In this document: positions 43,120-50,026 of the stretch, in pieces
Layout: each line of letters begins with the position of its first letter
Numbering within the stretch: position 1 is the stretch's first letter
Assembly (NCBI GenBank): GCA_014163555.1
Contig: JACJGO010000001.1
Location: forward strand, 1-64,000
Length of the DNA stretch: 64,000 nucleotides
Direction: 5' to 3'
Source of the DNA: Flavisolibacter longurius
GTDB taxonomy: Bacteria > Bacteroidota > Bacteroidia > Chitinophagales > Chitinophagaceae
The notes under the pieces: model-generated
What the model saw: only the letters and a program-made list of their open reading frames with translations
The model's database searches: none
Told to the model about the DNA's origin: nothing
Program-made: the position numbers and the translations under genes

Positions 43120-44952
43120 ATGCAATACCAGCCGATCGAAAATTATGGCATCATTGGTGACCTCAACACAGTAGCCCTCGTGGGCCTGAATGGCTCCATT
43201 GATTTCATGTGCTTTCCGGACTTTGATTCGCCAACCGTTTTTGCGGCTCTCCTGGATGCGGAGAAAGGTGGGCAGTTCCAGATTGTTCCGGCGTTTGCTG
43301 AAATGAAATCAAAGCAGCTTTACCTGCCCGATACCAACGTATTGCTTACCCGGTTTCTTTCCCGCGAAGGTGTAGGTGAGATTACCGATTTTATGCCGGT
43401 AGAAGAATTGTTCGATGGCAAAGAACTCATTCGGCGGGTTACCACGGTGCGTGGCGAAGTGCATTACAAACTCACCTGCCAGCCCCGGTTTAATTATGCC
43501 CGGAGCCCGCATACCACCGTCATCCGCTCCGATTATGAAGTCATTTTTTTCAGCAAAGGCGATGATCAAACTACACTTCGCCTGTTGAGCACTGTTCCTT
43601 TACAGGTAAAGGACAATGATGTTTTTGCCGAATTCAGCCTGAAGCCCAACGAAACGGCAGACTTTCTTTTGGAGCATGTTAACAAGCAACATTCTCTGCA
43701 AAAAAACTTCAAGAAATTTATTACCGACAGCCTTTTCCAAACTGTCAATTATTGGAAAGAATGGGTGGCACAATCCTCCTACCAGGGCCGCTGGATGGAT
43801 ACGGTGAACCGTTCTGCCCTAGTTTTAAAATTGCTTACCTCCTTCCGCTTAGGGTCCATGGTGGCGGCGCCAACTTTCAGCCTTCCCGAATGTGTGGGCG
43901 AAAAGCGCAACTGGGATTACCGCTTTACCTGGATCCGCGATGCATCGTTCACCGTTTATGCTTTTATTCGGCTCGGTTATACCAAAGAGGCCGGCGCTTT
44001 TATGAACTGGGTAGAAAAACAATGCCGCGACATCAAAGGACATCAGCGCCTTGGCATTATGTACAGCATTGATGGCAACCGCCAACTGCAGGAAGAAATC
44101 CTTGATCACCTTGATGGCTACAAAGGATCAAAGCCTGTTCGGATAGGCAATGATGCCTACCGGCAGTTGCAATTGGACATCTATGGCGAATTGATGGATT
44201 CAGTTTACCTGTACAACAAATACGGCAGTCCTATTTCCTATGATTTCTGGAAAGACCTGGAAAAGCAGATCGACTGGCTTTGCCAAAACTGGAATCAACC
44301 CGATGAAGGTATCTGGGAAGTTCGGGGCGGGCAGAAAAAGTTCCTGAATTCACGATTGATGTGCTGGGTGGCTTTCGACCGGGCTATCCGCATTGCACGG
44401 CTACGATCCTTCCCCTACCCCGATCAATGGGAAAAAGAACGCGACATCATTTATAAAAGTATCTATGCTGAATTCTGGGATGAAGAAAAAGGGGCGTTTA
44501 TGCAATACCATGGCTCGAATACGGTGGATGCATCAGCCCTGCTGATGCCACTGGTGCGTTTTATTGCCCCAAGAGATCCGCGCTGGCTTTCCACCCTGAA
44601 ACGCATAGAAGATGAACTGGTCTCCGACTCGCTGGTGTACCGGTATCACCCCGAAAAAGCCGCCGCCGATGGATTGGATAGCCACGAAGGCACCTTCTCC
44701 ATGTGCACGTTTTGGTATGTAGAATGCCTGGCCCGTGCCGGCCAACTGGAGAAAGCCCGGTTTTATTTTGAAAAAATGCTGGGGTATGCCAATCACCTAG
44801 GATTGTATTCGGAACAACTGGGATTTCAGGGCGAACACCTTGGAAATTTTCCTCAGGCCTTTACCCATCTTGGCCTTATTTCCGCGGCGCATATTCTCGA
44901 TAAGCAGTTGAACGACCGGCGCAACAAAGCCGTTAACAACGGTGATATCTAA
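43120..44952 (+). CDS. GH15 glucoamylase-like hydrolase
   Basis: About 610 residues from ATG 43120 (MQYQPIENYGIIGDLNTVALVG), where family similarity begins. The N-terminal beta-sandwich domain covers about 1-250; the (alpha/alpha)6 barrel follows with NWDYRFTWIRDASFTVYAF (substrate-binding Trp, Arg, Asp), QPDEGIWEVRGG (likely acid Glu) and DSHEGTFSMCTFWYVE (likely base Glu). No signal peptide, so cytoplasmic. This branch of GH15 includes glucoamylases, trehalases and glucodextranases; the substrate is probably an alpha-glucoside or trehalose. Single gene. Confidence 0.9.
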   Translation: MQYQPIENYGIIGDLNTVALVGLNGSIDFMCFPDFDSPTVFAALLDAEKGGQFQIVPAFAEMKSKQLYLPDTNVLLTRFLSREGVGEITDFMPVEELFDGKELIRRVTTVRGEVHYKLTCQPRFNYARSPHTTVIRSDYEVIFFSKGDDQTTLRLLSTVPLQVKDNDVFAEFSLKPNETADFLLEHVNKQHSLQKNFKKFITDSLFQTVNYWKEWVAQSSYQGRWMDTVNRSALVLKLLTSFRLGSMVAAPTFSLPECVGEKRNWDYRFTWIRDASFTVYAFIRLGYTKEAGAFMNWVEKQCRDIKGHQRLGIMYSIDGNRQLQEEILDHLDGYKGSKPVRIGNDAYRQLQLDIYGELMDSVYLYNKYGSPISYDFWKDLEKQIDWLCQNWNQPDEGIWEVRGGQKKFLNSRLMCWVAFDRAIRIARLRSFPYPDQWEKERDIIYKSIYAEFWDEEKGAFMQYHGSNTVDASALLMPLVRFIAPRDPRWLSTLKRIEDELVSDSLVYRYHPEKAAADGLDSHEGTFSMCTFWYVECLARAGQLEKARFYFEKMLGYANHLGLYSEQLGFQGEHLGNFPQAFTHLGLISAAHILDKQLNDRRNKAVNNGDI

Positions 44953-45031
44953 ACTGCTTTCAGGCAGGCCCGGCAAGGGTTCTGAAAGAAATAGGGGCCG
45001 GTAGCCATGCTAGAATGAAGCAAAAACCAAT

Positions 45032-45061
45032 TTTGTATTTTCAGCCAGTTGCTTTATTTTG
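45032..45061 (+). promoter_or_regulatory. Bacteroidota-type promoter of the thr operon
   Basis: TTTG at 45032-45035 and TATTTTGG at 45055-45062 are 19 bases apart; only one conserved base of TAnnTTTG deviates. Transcription would begin near 45068, about 12 bases before the leader ORF. The long distance (190 bases) from here to thrA fits a regulatory leader. Confidence 0.55.
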
Positions 45062-45079
45062 GTCATCTATCAAATAGTT

Positions 45080-45163
45080 GTGACTAAGGTAAGCAGCCAT
45101 ATTATCCCGATCTTCTCAGCCACTTCGGCTGGCATTACCATTACCACAACAACAATCCGCTAA
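45080..45163 (+). CDS. Candidate thr operon leader peptide (27 codons, Thr/Ile-rich)
   Basis: A short ORF begins with GTG at 45080 and ends with TAA at 45161-45163. The last nine residues are ITITTTTIR, with codons ATT ACC ATT ACC ACA ACA ACA ATC CGC, so five Thr and three Ile codons stand in a row. This is just the pattern of the enterobacterial thrL peptide, which senses charged tRNA-Thr and tRNA-Ile. It lies between a promoter-like sequence and thrA, on the same strand, and a hairpin overlaps its end. No other start is needed, though GTG is less usual. That it is a leader is inference; the codon run and position are seen directly. Confidence 0.68.
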   Translation: MTKVSSHIIPIFSATSAGITITTTTIR

Positions 45164-45190
45164 CGCGGATTGAAATGACCATATTATCCC
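45097..45190 (+). repeat. 12-bp direct repeat CCATATTATCCC in the thr leader
   Basis: CCATATTATCCC occurs at 45097-45108, inside the leader ORF, and again at 45179-45190, between its stop and thrA. ACTTC follows each copy 24-25 bases later. The spacing is 82 bases. Such a repeat could allow two alternative RNA pairings or be a protein site; its partner is unknown. Confidence 0.6.
45154..45171 (+). promoter_or_regulatory. Hairpin at the end of the thr leader ORF
   Basis: AATCCGC (45154-45160) and GCGGATT (45165-45171) form a perfect 7-bp stem with loop TAAC, and the loop contains the stop codon of the leader ORF. A second small hairpin (CAGCC-ACTTC-GGCTG, 45117-45131) lies upstream within the ORF. 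A ribosome stalled in the Thr/Ile run would cover the left arm and block this stem. There is no T run, so classic intrinsic termination here is not evident. Confidence 0.6.
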
Positions 45191-45258
45191 CTGGGCCCTG
45201 TGCTACTTCTCTGGTTCAAATCATCTATTCATCATCTATACCAATAAACCATTTGTTC

Positions 45259-47694
45259 ATGCAGGTTTTAAAATTTGGCGGCACGTCTGTGGCAAATGCA
45301 GCCAATATCAAAAAAGTAAAAGAAATTGTACAGGCCCGGCAGGGTAAAACCGTCGTCGTGGTCTCGGCCCTTGGCGGTGTAACCGATATGCTGCTGGAAT
45401 GTGGCCACCTGGCCTATCGTGGCGAAAGCTGTTACAAATCCACGCTGCAAAAACTCACCGACCGCCACCTGGCCACCGTGAAGGAACTTTTGCCGCTCAC
45501 CAATCAAAGCAGTGTGTTGAGTTTTGTGATGCAGCAGTTTAACGAAGTGGAAGACATCTGCAACGGCATTTTTCTGCTCCGCGATTTTACGGAGAGAACA
45601 AGAGACCGCATTGTGAGTTATGGCGAGCTTATTTCTTCGCAAATCATTGCTGCTTTTTTCAAAGCTGAAGGCCTTAACAGCGAGTGGGTAGATGCCCGCC
45701 AACTGTTAAAGACCAACTCCGATTTTACGAGGGCAATTGTTGATGTAACCAAGACCGATGCGGCATTTGAACGTTATTTTTCGGAGGCTACTGCCAATGT
45801 ATTTGTGCTACCGGGATTTATTGCTTCCGACGAAAGCGGTAACACCACCACGCTGGGTAGGGGCGGATCGGATTATACCGCCGCTATTGCCGGTGCGGCG
45901 CTTAATGCAGGCGTTGTGGAAATCTGGACCGACGTTTCGGGTATGATGACCGCCGATCCGCGGAATGTGCCAAATGCAAAAGTGATCCGCCGGATCTCTT
46001 ACCATGAGGCCATGGAGCTATCGCATTTTGGGGCCAAGGTGATATACCCGCCCACCATTCAGCCGCTGATGAAAAAGTCCATCCCGGTTTGGATCAAGAA
46101 CACCTTTCACCCCCAAGATGAGGGCACCCTGGTTCAATCGACCCACCACAATGGCGACATAATTACCGGCATTTCCAGCATCAACAAAATGGCCCTGCTC
46201 CTGCTCGAAGGCAGCGGCATGGTAGGCATTCCGGGTTTTTCCAAACGGCTGTTTGAAGCGCTGGCCACAAACAACATCAATGTTATACTGATTACACAGG
46301 CCTCCTCCGAGCATTCCATCTGCGTAGGTGTAGATGAAAGCCTGGCAGAAAATGCAAAAGCCATCGTTGACCAGGCCTTCCGCTTTGAAATTGAAAAAGA
46401 AAAAGTAAACCCGCTGAGCATAGAACGGAATCTTTCTATCGTTGCGTTGGTGGGTGATAAAATGAAAAGCCATCCCGGTATCAGCGGTCGCATGTTTAGC
46501 ACCCTGGGCCGCAATGGCGTGAATGTGCGGGCCATCGCCCAGGGTTCGTCCGAACGGAACATCTCTGCCGTGATTGCAACCGAGGACATTAAAAAGGCCA
46601 TGAACGTGCTGCACGAGGAGTTTTTTGAAACGGCCTACAAACAACTGAACCTGTTTATTGCAGGCACCGGCAATGTGGGCAGCAAACTGTTGGCGCAGAT
46701 CGCACAGCAACAGGATTACCTGCAGCGAAATTTACGGTTACAGGTAAGAGTGGTAGGCCTTGCCAACAGTCGCAAAATGGTCTTCAGTGATGAAGGCATT
46801 GATCTGCACAACTGGCAGGACCGCATGGCCGAAGGCGAAGCCTCAGACCTCTCCCGCTTTATTCACATCATGCAGGAAAAAAACCTGCGGAACGCCGTAT
46901 TTATTGACATTACCGCCAACGAGTCGGTTGCTATGGCTTATGATAATGTGTTTGAAAAAAGCATCTCCATCGTGGCCTGTAACAAAATTGCCTGCTCTTC
47001 TGACTTTGCGTACTACCGGGGCCTGAAAGAAGCGGCCCGGGATCACAATGTTTCGTTTCTGTTTGAGACAAACGTTGGTGCAAGTCTTCCCATCATAGGT
47101 ACGCTGAACGACCTTTTACGCAGCGGCGACCGCATCACAAAAATTGAAGCGGTGCTGAGTGGCACCCTGAATTTTGTTTTCAACAACTACAATGGCGAAA
47201 GAAGCTTTGCCGATGTTGTACGGCAGGCACAGGCCGAAGGCTATACCGAACCCGATCCGCGACTGGACCTAAGCGGAAAAGATGTGATGCGCAAGATCAT
47301 GATCCTTGCAAGGGAAGCCGGTGAACCCTTGGAGATGAGTGCTATCACCAATCATACCTTTATGCCGGAAAGTTGCATGCAGGGAAGCGTGAATGATTTT
47401 TATGCGGAAATGGAGCGGCAGGAAGCGCATTTTAAAAACCTGTATGAAGAAGCGAAAGCAGCCGGCAAAAAATTGAAATTCGTGGCCACCTTCGAAAACG
47501 GCAAAGCAGCGGTCGGCTTAAAACACATTGACCCTGCACACGATTTTTATCACCTGTATGGCAAAGACAACATCGTGACCTTTTTCACCAACCGGTATAC
47601 TGATCAGCCCATGGTGGTAAAAGGCGCCGGCGCCGGTGCCGAAGTAACGGCTTCCGGTGTTTTTGCGGACATTATCAGAACCCTCAGAGCATAA
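45259..47694 (+). CDS. thrA: Bifunctional aspartate kinase / homoserine dehydrogenase I
   Basis: An 811-residue fusion from ATG 45259 (MQVLKFGGTSVANA), where the kinase domain starts; the frame is open back to 45175 but this extension is not family-like. Aspartate kinase covers 1-295 with KFGGTSV and TTTLGRGGSDYTAAIAG; two ACT domains at about 310-450 (NINVILITQASSEHSICVGV; NGVNVRAIAQGSSERNISAVI) give feedback control. Homoserine dehydrogenase covers about 460-811 with IAGTGNVGSKLL (NADP) and GTLNFVF. It catalyses the first and third steps from aspartate to threonine. A leader ORF, hairpin and promoter lie upstream. Confidence 0.96.
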   Translation: MQVLKFGGTSVANAANIKKVKEIVQARQGKTVVVVSALGGVTDMLLECGHLAYRGESCYKSTLQKLTDRHLATVKELLPLTNQSSVLSFVMQQFNEVEDICNGIFLLRDFTERTRDRIVSYGELISSQIIAAFFKAEGLNSEWVDARQLLKTNSDFTRAIVDVTKTDAAFERYFSEATANVFVLPGFIASDESGNTTTLGRGGSDYTAAIAGAALNAGVVEIWTDVSGMMTADPRNVPNAKVIRRISYHEAMELSHFGAKVIYPPTIQPLMKKSIPVWIKNTFHPQDEGTLVQSTHHNGDIITGISSINKMALLLLEGSGMVGIPGFSKRLFEALATNNINVILITQASSEHSICVGVDESLAENAKAIVDQAFRFEIEKEKVNPLSIERNLSIVALVGDKMKSHPGISGRMFSTLGRNGVNVRAIAQGSSERNISAVIATEDIKKAMNVLHEEFFETAYKQLNLFIAGTGNVGSKLLAQIAQQQDYLQRNLRLQVRVVGLANSRKMVFSDEGIDLHNWQDRMAEGEASDLSRFIHIMQEKNLRNAVFIDITANESVAMAYDNVFEKSISIVACNKIACSSDFAYYRGLKEAARDHNVSFLFETNVGASLPIIGTLNDLLRSGDRITKIEAVLSGTLNFVFNNYNGERSFADVVRQAQAEGYTEPDPRLDLSGKDVMRKIMILAREAGEPLEMSAITNHTFMPESCMQGSVNDFYAEMERQEAHFKNLYEEAKAAGKKLKFVATFENGKAAVGLKHIDPAHDFYHLYGKDNIVTFFTNRYTDQPMVVKGAGAGAEVTASGVFADIIRTLRA

Positions 47695-47784: not shown

Positions 47785-48738
47785 ATGAATGCAATAAAAA
47801 TAAAAGCGCCGGCAACGGTGGCCAATCTTGTCTGCGGGTTTGATATACTTGGCATGTGCCTGCACAATCCTTACGACATAATGGAAGTACAACTGCTGGA
47901 CCGGCGGGAAGTTCTTATTGAAAGCGCTGACGGTTACCCCTTACCGAAAGACCCTGCTCAAAACACAGCCGGTGCCCCCTTGCTTGAAATGCTGAAAGAC
48001 ATAGACGATGACCTGGGTTTTGCAGTGACCATCCACAAGCATATCAAGCCTGGAAGCGGACTGGGTTCCAGTGCAGCCAGTGCCGCCGGCGCTGTAGCTG
48101 CTGCCAATCAATTGCTGGGAAACCGGTACAGCCGGGAAGAACAGGTGCAGTTTGCTATGTTTGGCGAAAAAGCCGCTTCCGGCGTCAAGCATGCCGATAA
48201 TGTAGCGCCGGCGATCTACGGCGGCATTACCCTTATCCGTTGCATTTTTCCGCTGGACATCGTGTCCATTCAACATCCGCCACTTTTTGTTACCGTAGTA
48301 CATCCACAGATTGAAGTAAAAACCTCCGATGCACGGCAGATTCTTCGCAAAGAAGTTCTGCTGAAGGACGCCATCAAACAATGGGGCAATATTGCCGGCC
48401 TGGTGGCGGGTTTTCTGAAAGGCGATTATGATCTGATTGGCCGCTCGATGGAAGACATCATCATTGAGCCGGTGCGCAGCGTTTTGATTCCTGGCTTTGA
48501 AAAAGTAAAGCGGGAATGCAGGGAAGCCGGCGCCCTCGGTGGCGGCATTTCCGGGTCGGGGCCTTCCCTTTTTATGCTCAGCAGGGATGAAGCAACCGCC
48601 AAAACAGTGGAAGGCATCATGAAAGAAACCTACCAGGCACTGGGACTGGATCATTACACCTACGTAACTACGGTTAACAGCCATGGTTGTACCCTCCTTA
48701 ATCAACAACAACATGAAGTATTACAGCACCAACAATAA
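47785..48738 (+). CDS. thrB: Homoserine kinase
   Basis: A 317-residue GHMP kinase that phosphorylates homoserine. The ATP motif PGSGLGSSAASAAGA is at about residue 90, the N-terminal IKAPATVANLVCGFDILG is typical of ThrB, and GGGISGSGPSLFML near 250 is the third GHMP motif. It overlaps thrC by 26 bases, so the last two steps are translationally coupled. Length is normal. Confidence 0.96.
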   Translation: MNAIKIKAPATVANLVCGFDILGMCLHNPYDIMEVQLLDRREVLIESADGYPLPKDPAQNTAGAPLLEMLKDIDDDLGFAVTIHKHIKPGSGLGSSAASAAGAVAAANQLLGNRYSREEQVQFAMFGEKAASGVKHADNVAPAIYGGITLIRCIFPLDIVSIQHPPLFVTVVHPQIEVKTSDARQILRKEVLLKDAIKQWGNIAGLVAGFLKGDYDLIGRSMEDIIIEPVRSVLIPGFEKVKRECREAGALGGGISGSGPSLFMLSRDEATAKTVEGIMKETYQALGLDHYTYVTTVNSHGCTLLNQQQHEVLQHQQ

Positions 48739-50026
48739 ATCGTTGCAGGCGAATTTCAGAGAAGCCGCTATCCAAGGACAGGCACCCGACAAGGGATTAT
48801 ATTTTCCTGAAGCCATTCCGAAACTGCCAAAAGGTTTTATCGATGCATTAAAAACGGCATCGAAAGAGGAAATAGCCTACACGGTTATGAAGCCCTACGT
48901 TGGCGATACGATGTCGGGAGACGAATTACTTCGCATTGTTTCTGAAACGGTTAACTTTTCATTCCCACTCATCCCCCTTACCGATTCCATTTCAACTCTC
49001 GAACTGTTTCATGGACCTACCCTCGCTTTTAAAGATGTTGGCGCCCGGTTTATGAGCCGCTGCCTGGGGCATTTTGTAAAGGCCCGGGACAAAGAAATCA
49101 CCGTGCTGGTAGCAACCTCCGGCGACACGGGCGGCGCTGTGGCTGCGGGCTTTTATGAAGTGGAAGGTGTGAACGTTGTTATTCTTTATCCTTCGGGGAA
49201 AGTCAGCCTAACACAGGAAGTGCAGCTAACCACCCTGGGTAAAAACATTACTGCCATTGAAGTGGATGGCAGCTTTGATGATTGCCAGCAGTTGGTGAAG
49301 AATGCTTTTATGGATGAAGACCTGAAAAAAGCACGATTTCTCACCTCGGCCAATTCCATCAATGTGGCCCGGTGGCTACCGCAACAGTTGTATTATTTTT
49401 TTGCGCACCAACAATGGTCGCAAAACGAAGCACCGGTCATCTCAGTCCCCAGCGGTAATTTCGGTAACATCTGTGCCGGTTTGCTGGCCAACGTATCGGG
49501 ATTACCGGTAGCCCATTTTATTGCCGCCTGTAATGCCAACGATACTGTTCCGGCATTTTTGGAAACCGGTGTGTACCAGGCCAAACCTTCGGTGCCAACT
49601 TTGTCCAATGCCATGGATGTTGGCAATCCCAGCAATTTTGTGCGCATCCTGGAACTATTTGACCATCAATTACCGACCTTAAAAAATCTACTCACGGCCT
49701 GTAGCATCAAGGATGAAGAGACCCGTGCCACTATCAGGGATGTATACACAAAAACAGGTTATGTACTGGATCCGCATGGCGCAGTGGGATTTCTTGCCCT
49801 TCAACAATATCTTGAAAGGGCTCCCGCTAAACAAGGCTATTTCCTGGAAACAGCGCACCCGGTTAAATTCTACGATGCCATAGAACCGGTAATTGGAAAA
49901 AAGATCCCGGTTCCCGAAAGCATTGCCGTTTTATTGCAGAAAGAGAAAAAAAGCATTCGCATGAAACCCGATGATGCACATCTTAAAACAGTGCTTTTGG
50001 AACAAACACTGCAGCCAGCCACATGA
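48713..50026 (+). CDS. thrC: Threonine synthase
   Basis: A 437-residue PLP enzyme from ATG 48713 (MKYYSTNNKSLQANFREAAIQG); the frame is open to 48683 but the family begins here. The PLP Lys is in FHGPTLAFKDVGARF, ATSGDTGGAVAAGF binds phosphate, and SANSINVARWLPQQ and NPSNFVRILEL are hallmark stretches. It converts phosphohomoserine to threonine. It ends the operon; a terminator lies about 195 bases on. Confidence 0.96.
   Translation: MKYYSTNNKSLQANFREAAIQGQAPDKGLYFPEAIPKLPKGFIDALKTASKEEIAYTVMKPYVGDTMSGDELLRIVSETVNFSFPLIPLTDSISTLELFHGPTLAFKDVGARFMSRCLGHFVKARDKEITVLVATSGDTGGAVAAGFYEVEGVNVVILYPSGKVSLTQEVQLTTLGKNITAIEVDGSFDDCQQLVKNAFMDEDLKKARFLTSANSINVARWLPQQLYYFFAHQQWSQNEAPVISVPSGNFGNICAGLLANVSGLPVAHFIAACNANDTVPAFLETGVYQAKPSVPTLSNAMDVGNPSNFVRILELFDHQLPTLKNLLTACSIKDEETRATIRDVYTKTGYVLDPHGAVGFLALQQYLERAPAKQGYFLETAHPVKFYDAIEPVIGKKIPVPESIAVLLQKEKKSIRMKPDDAHLKTVLLEQTLQPAT

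Follow-up and report, generated by a model that had tools for sequence, protein, structure and literature searches.

The DNA directly upstream of thrA in the window (the whole analysed stretch, 64,000 nucleotides long) raises the question of whether the threonine operon of a Chitinophagaceae bacterium is controlled by a translated leader and, if so, how that leader acts. The original prediction was that the region repeats the leader logic of enterobacterial thrL attenuation, possibly with a different mechanism, and comparison with relatives supports this reading. The gene order downstream of the leader is thrA-thrB-thrC, and thrA starts at 45259, directly 3' of an array of leader, hairpin HP2, CATAT and GGGC.

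45033 to 45062, + strand: promoter-like element TTTG-N19-TATTTTGG (from the sequence; family compared with shuffles).
45259 to 47694, + strand: thrA, bifunctional aspartate kinase/homoserine dehydrogenase I (NF006959, 1044 bits).
47785 to 48738, + strand: thrB, homoserine kinase (NF002288).
48683 to 50026, + strand: thrC, threonine synthase (TIGR00260).

The thrC start is the first ATG of a mechanically called ORF that overlaps thrB, and the real start may lie later. Among the best 80 of 578 thrA loci, the closest named relatives of this ThrA are from Flavisolibacter species (89 and 86% identity).

The family set comprises the window and the best 80 of 578 confirmed thrA loci from a scan of bacterial genomes; f1 is the home family, Chitinophagaceae, and f2 to f51 label other families. 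A hairpin, CATAT and GGG lie upstream of thrA in 77 of these 81 regions, in the order leader ORF (usually ending in a Thr/Ile run), HP2, a linker of 5-10 nt, CATAT and GGG. No leader was found before thrA at L017, L027 and L069, nor at L078, which has only 107 bases upstream, and these four are set aside from the later family counts. L054 is left out of the terminator and later tests, L055 (unclear frame) out of the P0 and motif 1 counts and part of the HP2 counts, L041, for no strong reason, out of the segment scan, swap and P0 tests, and eight near-duplicates out of the swap tests. At L054 (about 2722-2821) the module sits farther out, about 250 bases upstream of thrA, and four of the last 12 leader codons specify Thr or Ile.

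The predicted promoter-like element, TTTG followed after 19 bases by TATTTTGG, is present at 45033-45062, and it resembles Bacteroidota promoters of the -33/-7 type. A -7 match of at least five of six positions together with TTG occurs in 34 of 76 family-set sequences compared with 10.7% of mononucleotide shuffles; a perfect -7 is found in only 13 of 76 (7.4% of shuffles).

45080 to 45163, + strand: leader peptide ORF, 27 codons plus TAA (from translation; conserved in relatives).
45134 to 45157, + strand: Thr/Ile regulatory codons, five Thr and three Ile (from translation and family codon comparison).

Translation bears out the predicted 27-codon ORF with five Thr and three Ile among its last nine codons. 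It starts with GTG at 45080, encodes VTKVSSHIIPIFSATSAGITITTTTIR and stops with TAA at 45161-45163, the final nine codons reading Ile Thr Ile Thr Thr Thr Thr Ile Arg. Alignment of relatives had been proposed as a check, and their thrA upstream regions keep an ORF whose closing Thr/Ile codons vary at the third position. Within 10 codons near a stop, 69 of 80 family upstream regions (L078, with 107 bases, is too short to count) reach a Thr/Ile score of 7 or more, against 0.75% of dinucleotide shuffles, and 67 of the 81 family-set regions pass a stricter script that also asks for at least six Thr/Ile in the last 12 codons. Across codons -9 to -4 (69 sequences; six register variants, L054 and L055 are left out of this table) A predominates at the first position and the third varies freely, with an entropy of 1.33-1.73 bits at position 3 compared with 0.30-0.93 at position 1. 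Thr and Ile are thus kept while the third position is free, indicating that the run behaves as coding. The leader starts 26-31 codons before its stop in 57 of 74 cases under our start rule, which is limited to 24-38 codons in the home family and to 18-44 codons in the tests of f5, f24 and f3.

45153 to 45172, + strand: HP2, perfect 8-bp hairpin with the stop codon in its loop (from sequence, swap tests and arm types).
45117 to 45131, + strand: HP1, CAGCC-ACTTC-GGCTG, 5' of the Thr/Ile run (from own-versus-swapped pairing).

The hairpin at the end of the leader is perfect and carries the stop codon in its loop, as originally described, and is 8 bp rather than 7 bp long: the arms CAATCCGC (45153-45160) and GCGGATTG (45165-45172) flank the loop TAAC (45161-45164). 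In 69 of 75 family-set sequences the stop falls within the HP2 loop or overlaps it; the other six have it inside or beyond the 3' arm and retain the hairpin, which suggests that HP2 itself is kept. Its arms fall into several types (50 AACCC, 13 TCCGC, 10 GACCC and 3 others among 76), with the variants CAACCC-GGGTTG and CAATCC-GGATTG (a C-G to T-A exchange) within the family, and TACCCC-GGGGTA and ACGGG-CCCGT outside it. Pairing is preserved by compensatory changes on both sides, a second point on which the proposed check came out positive. Same-species arms beat swapped arms in 60 of 60 trials (z -7.8; 0 of 60 swaps reach the own pairing). HP1 also pairs better with its own partner (z -3.3 in the segment scan; z -3.7 and 0 of 60 swaps in a targeted test). 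The leader and hairpin observation is confirmed as real and well beyond chance. At the sequence level the evidence for the element is comparative, and the folding energy of the window leader by itself is unremarkable (z -1.7, equalled by 13 of 200 shuffles).

45097 to 45108, + strand: motif 1, first copy of CCATATTATCCC, within the leader (from counts of CATAT or CATAC against shuffles).
45179 to 45190, + strand: motif 2, second copy of CCATATTATCCC, with the core CATAT at 45180-45184 (from conservation).
45194 to 45204, + strand: HP3, GGC-CCTGT-GCT, a possible small hairpin, doubtful (only GGGC is clearly conserved).

A CATAT-type motif is doubled in the window, once in the leader and once after HP2. 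Attention had been drawn to the second copy of a 12-bp repeat, and deservedly so: its CATAT is the most conserved stretch, nearly invariant (TATAT in a few family-set regions) and followed by GGG. The linker between HP2 and CATAT is 7 bases in the window and 5-10 nt in all 76 family-set sequences measured. Inside the leader, CATAT or CATAC occurs in 52 of 75 cases compared with 24% of shuffles, in 7 of the 52 outside the usual frame. HP3 does no better than chance in the home family (a score of at least 7 in 36 of 76 sequences compared with 40% of shuffles), two of 60 swaps reach its own pairing, and it is absent from the predicted fold of the window. HP3 was dropped as a second conserved hairpin, as shuffles equal it and the finder always returns something. 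The hairpin after CATAT looks much stronger in f24 (L101, L200, L201 and L204), which belongs to a class other than that of the window; examples are TTGGC-ATTAT-GCCAA (L101, by eye) and CGGCA-TCC-TGCCG (L200).

When every pair of segments between -150 and +75 of CATAT is compared, own against swapped, HP4 (z -6.4), HP2 and HP1 come out among the top, along with a pairing between the start codon and the Thr/Ile run and some pairs that we do not interpret. HP4, a covarying hairpin that many relatives have at about +27 to +48 from CATAT, is missing or very weak at that place in the window (about 45202-45228). Further segment pairs in the scan have z near -3, for example -72/-30 and -135/+30.

45077 to 45092, + strand: 5' strand of helix P0, with GTTGTG at 45077-45082 (including the GTG start) and GGTAA at 45088-45092.
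45135 to 45150, + strand: 3' strand of P0, inside the run, with TTACC at 45135-45139 and CACAAC at 45145-45150.

The pairing between start codon and run, which we call P0, is an addition to the original account. In the window GTTGTG would pair with CACAAC and GGTAA with TTACC. Over 66 non-redundant sequences the mean duplex energy of P0 is -7.58 kcal/mol, compared with -6.30 kcal/mol for swapped partners (0 of 200 as strong) and -6.68 kcal/mol for random synonymous Thr/Ile codons (0 of 100 as strong). The P0 windows were picked after the segment scan and swap tests on the same sequences, and the swap test corrects incompletely for relatedness; synonymous recoding is the stronger control. In whole-leader folds (n = 74) the expected number of P0 pairs has a mean of 4.1 and a median of 0.95, and reaches four or more in only 42%, indicating a strong P0 in some relatives and a weak one in others. 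In f5 the signal is weak (1 of 300 swaps reach it; 15 sequences), and P0 was not seen in f24 (118 of 300 swaps; 11 sequences) or f3 (264 of 300 swaps; 6 sequences). By sequence comparison P0 is clear only in the home family, where it suggests that translation of the leader limits itself except while a ribosome occupies the run.

The reach of the element was assessed with a covariance model running from HP2 to GGGC, built from 38 of 56 eligible sequences. All share one HP2 type, so the counts are lower bounds. The model matches at least 104 of 195 family genomes, counted without regard to position relative to thrA, and it misses G004, which has the element (L144). It also matches at least 22 of 395 phylum genomes, in all 22 just upstream of thrA; ten of these are from the home family, four from f5 and eight from f24, a family of another class. 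A thrA search of the same 395 genomes found 299 with thrA at E up to 1e-100, and 80 of the 299 upstream regions, hand-picked for spread among the matches listed, make up a wide set. Within it, 19 of 80 regions have CATAT behind a hairpin resembling HP2, against 1.6% of shuffles (nine in f5, three each in f4 and f24, two in f8, one in f12 and one, probably spurious, in f1), and 21 of 80, among them 7 of 7 from f3, reach a Thr/Ile score of 7 or higher, against 0.75% of shuffles. None of five sampled f2 regions scores 6 or more, and in a mixed set of 20 that includes f2 none scores 7 or more and three score 6. In the window's own genome the module pattern has 11 matches compared with 6 for a reversed control; the other 10 show no Thr/Ile leader by eye, 9 of them lying within an open frame, and the covariance model finds one match at E up to 10. 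The ilvD gene of this genome (L225) has no leader and follows another gene closely. L145, a home-family locus with 49% ThrA identity, has a GC-rich hairpin near thrA (score -4.6) and lacks the module. Outside the home family, the ThrA most similar to that of the window, among the matches listed, is in f9 (L190 and L191; 60-62%): both loci have a hairpin that, like HP2, holds the stop in its loop, both lack CATAT, and their terminator scores are -34.4 and +8.5, respectively.

Taken together, the comparison supports the ORF, the codon run, HP1, HP2, P0 in the home family, CATAT, the position before thrA and the lack of a canonical terminator. We consider it likely that the element regulates thrABC in cis through a leader peptide whose translation gauges how much charged tRNA-Thr and tRNA-Ile is available. 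Given which codons it contains, where it lies and how it is conserved, sensing of that supply by a ribosome is by far the likeliest function, by analogy with established attenuators.

How such a sensor would act on thrA is a separate matter. The most obvious answer, an ordinary intrinsic-terminator attenuator whose terminator (HP2 plus linker, or HP4) is weak or degenerate, we think unlikely. It gains from HP4, the strongest own-versus-swapped signal, which reaches -2 kcal/mol in 29 of 76 sequences compared with 10.5% of shuffles; from T-rich stretches seen by eye after a hairpin in some relatives; and from best terminator scores that exceed those of shuffles in the family set (median -40 vs -63). 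Against it, a terminator score (standard formula, with f3 as positive control) above 0 occurs in none of the 76 family-set sequences, window included (0.8% of shuffles have one), nor in 14 f5 sequences, three f24 sequences and the three f4 members with CATAT, compared with 7 of 7 in f3 and two of four other classic-looking cases. HP4 has no U-rich tail and was set aside as a terminator for that reason, and HP2 in that role would overlap the translated region. A simple scan of 44700-45600 gives five terminator-like sites where 1.3 are expected: those on the + strand at 44744 and 44824 precede the leader, at HP2 only the - strand qualifies, and none lies on the + strand between leader and thrA. 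The earlier remark that no T run follows the hairpin is right for the + strand. An antiterminator pairing was not found either: when the HP2 3' arm was matched with five downstream segments, the best partner was reached by 3 of 60 swaps. Folds of several relatives without the HP2 5' arm show a classical switch with CATAT as region 3. This candidate was dropped because same-species pairs are no better than swapped pairs (HP2 3' arm paired with the CATAT region: own -3.59, swapped -3.95, with 60 of 60 swaps doing at least as well). Weak AU hairpins running from CATAT into T tracts are visible by eye in the f5 relatives L175, L176 and L172, and with scores of about -33 in L175 and L176 they are a lead only.

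We rate as rather improbable a translational output, in which the state of the leader would change how accessible the thrA start codon or how stable the mRNA is, and not transcription. The fairly constant distance from CATAT to thrA (median 83.5, quartiles 79.75 and 90; 76 sequences) fits such an output, as does the failure of the searches to find a terminator. However, in 14 tests pairing leader segments with the region of the thrA start or with the preceding 20 bases, none clearly beat swaps (the best, at -1.08 kcal/mol, was reached by 2 of 100), and the module lies 164-174 bases 5' of thrA in four f5 relatives. That a repressor binds HP2 as a DNA palindrome, with the ORF incidental, is highly improbable: HP2 is a perfect inverted repeat near a promoter-like element, but G.U wobble pairs in 20 of 76 sequences fit RNA instead, and Thr/Ile codons are conserved with their third positions free. 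A small functional protein is barely credible, since the ORF, although conserved, varies in sequence and length apart from the Thr/Ile run, the HP2 codons and the His-Ile pair often encoded by motif 1, which in some leaders is in a different frame.

For the leader-peptide regulator we infer the transcript start, the stalling, the direction of control and the output step as follows. The RNA would start a few bases before 45080, and a ribosome would load at the GTG with very little RNA 5' of it. With Thr or Ile in short supply, the ribosome would stall in the run at 45134-45157, covering the codons that otherwise pair with the leader start in P0 and standing at the HP2 5' arm. If both were ample, it would reach the stop codon in the HP2 loop and leave; P0 could then close over the start codon, so that leader translation limits itself, and HP2 would form, the module of HP2, CATAT and GGGC lowering thrA expression. 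As a guess, our first choice for the output is termination that depends on Rho or another factor, or processing of the mRNA close to CATAT, favoured here because no terminator was found. A more specific proposal, which we advance tentatively as a serious possibility, is that this is a distinct thrABC attenuator of the Bacteroidota in which a U-tract-free module of hairpin, linker, CATAT and GGGC acts through some factor, and in which the Thr/Ile codons of the Chitinophagaceae are synonymously chosen to mask the leader start, so that occupancy of the run gates leader translation.

The enterobacterial thrL attenuator (Rfam Thr_leader) places a Thr/Ile leader peptide directly before thrABC. The window element resembles it in having a Thr/Ile leader before thrABC and a hairpin that extends into the regulatory codons, with the stop codon next to it. 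It differs in that no U-tract terminator was found and no antiterminator is supported, in its conserved CATAT after the hairpin, and in a start region paired with the regulatory codons. In the E. coli trp leader, translation inhibits itself through pairing of the leader start with distal leader RNA; the masking of the leader start by downstream leader RNA is shared, whereas the masking strand here is the regulatory codon run itself. Rfam Thr_leader has no match at the gathering score in the window, there is no Rfam match at the gathering score at eight other loci, and at E up to 5 the region 44950-45400 gives only five chance-level matches to other families.

PMC2965389 covers the range of leader peptides then known, PMC7366714 describes Bacteroides short ORFs reminiscent of leader peptides, PMC4833913 deals with leader ORFs and reinitiation, and PMC2864571 lists Bacteroid-trp RNA (RF01692) for Bacteroidetes as likely cis-regulatory; the available portions of these four papers do not name a thr leader in Bacteroidota. 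Among the open-licence papers listed in full-text searches, none showed a thr or amino-acid leader from Bacteroidota or Chitinophagaceae. RF01692 matches none of 60 family genomes, the window's own included, under strict filters that recover the control Bacteroides ihuae.

Judged by their sequences, leader attenuators are not foreign to this organism or phylum. The f3 loci (L151-L157) resemble the window in that thrA is preceded by a Thr/Ile leader (all 7 score 7-9), but all seven have a strong terminator with a T run, none has CATAT with HP2, and P0 gives no signal (6 sequences); antiterminators were seen there only by eye. In the window's own genome, a his attenuator (L224, about 1380-1490, on G000:C43) lies just before hisG at 118099. 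It shares the leader-peptide sensor, here MNKNVHIHHHALPNG, with the thr leader and differs in a perfect 8-bp antiterminator (GGGTAAGC/GCTTACCC, -12.4 kcal/mol) and a terminator with a T run (score +30.5), so the organism has a canonical-looking attenuator, though not before thrA. The sensor part of the thr element is of an already known type, and the whole sets itself apart in that the searches found neither a terminator nor a supported antiterminator. If the proposal holds, amino-acid sensing by translating ribosomes would be widespread in Bacteroidota, with one form that does without the usual terminator, and the presence of a canonical-looking his attenuator beside a terminator-free thr leader in one genome would make the missing output factor directly testable.
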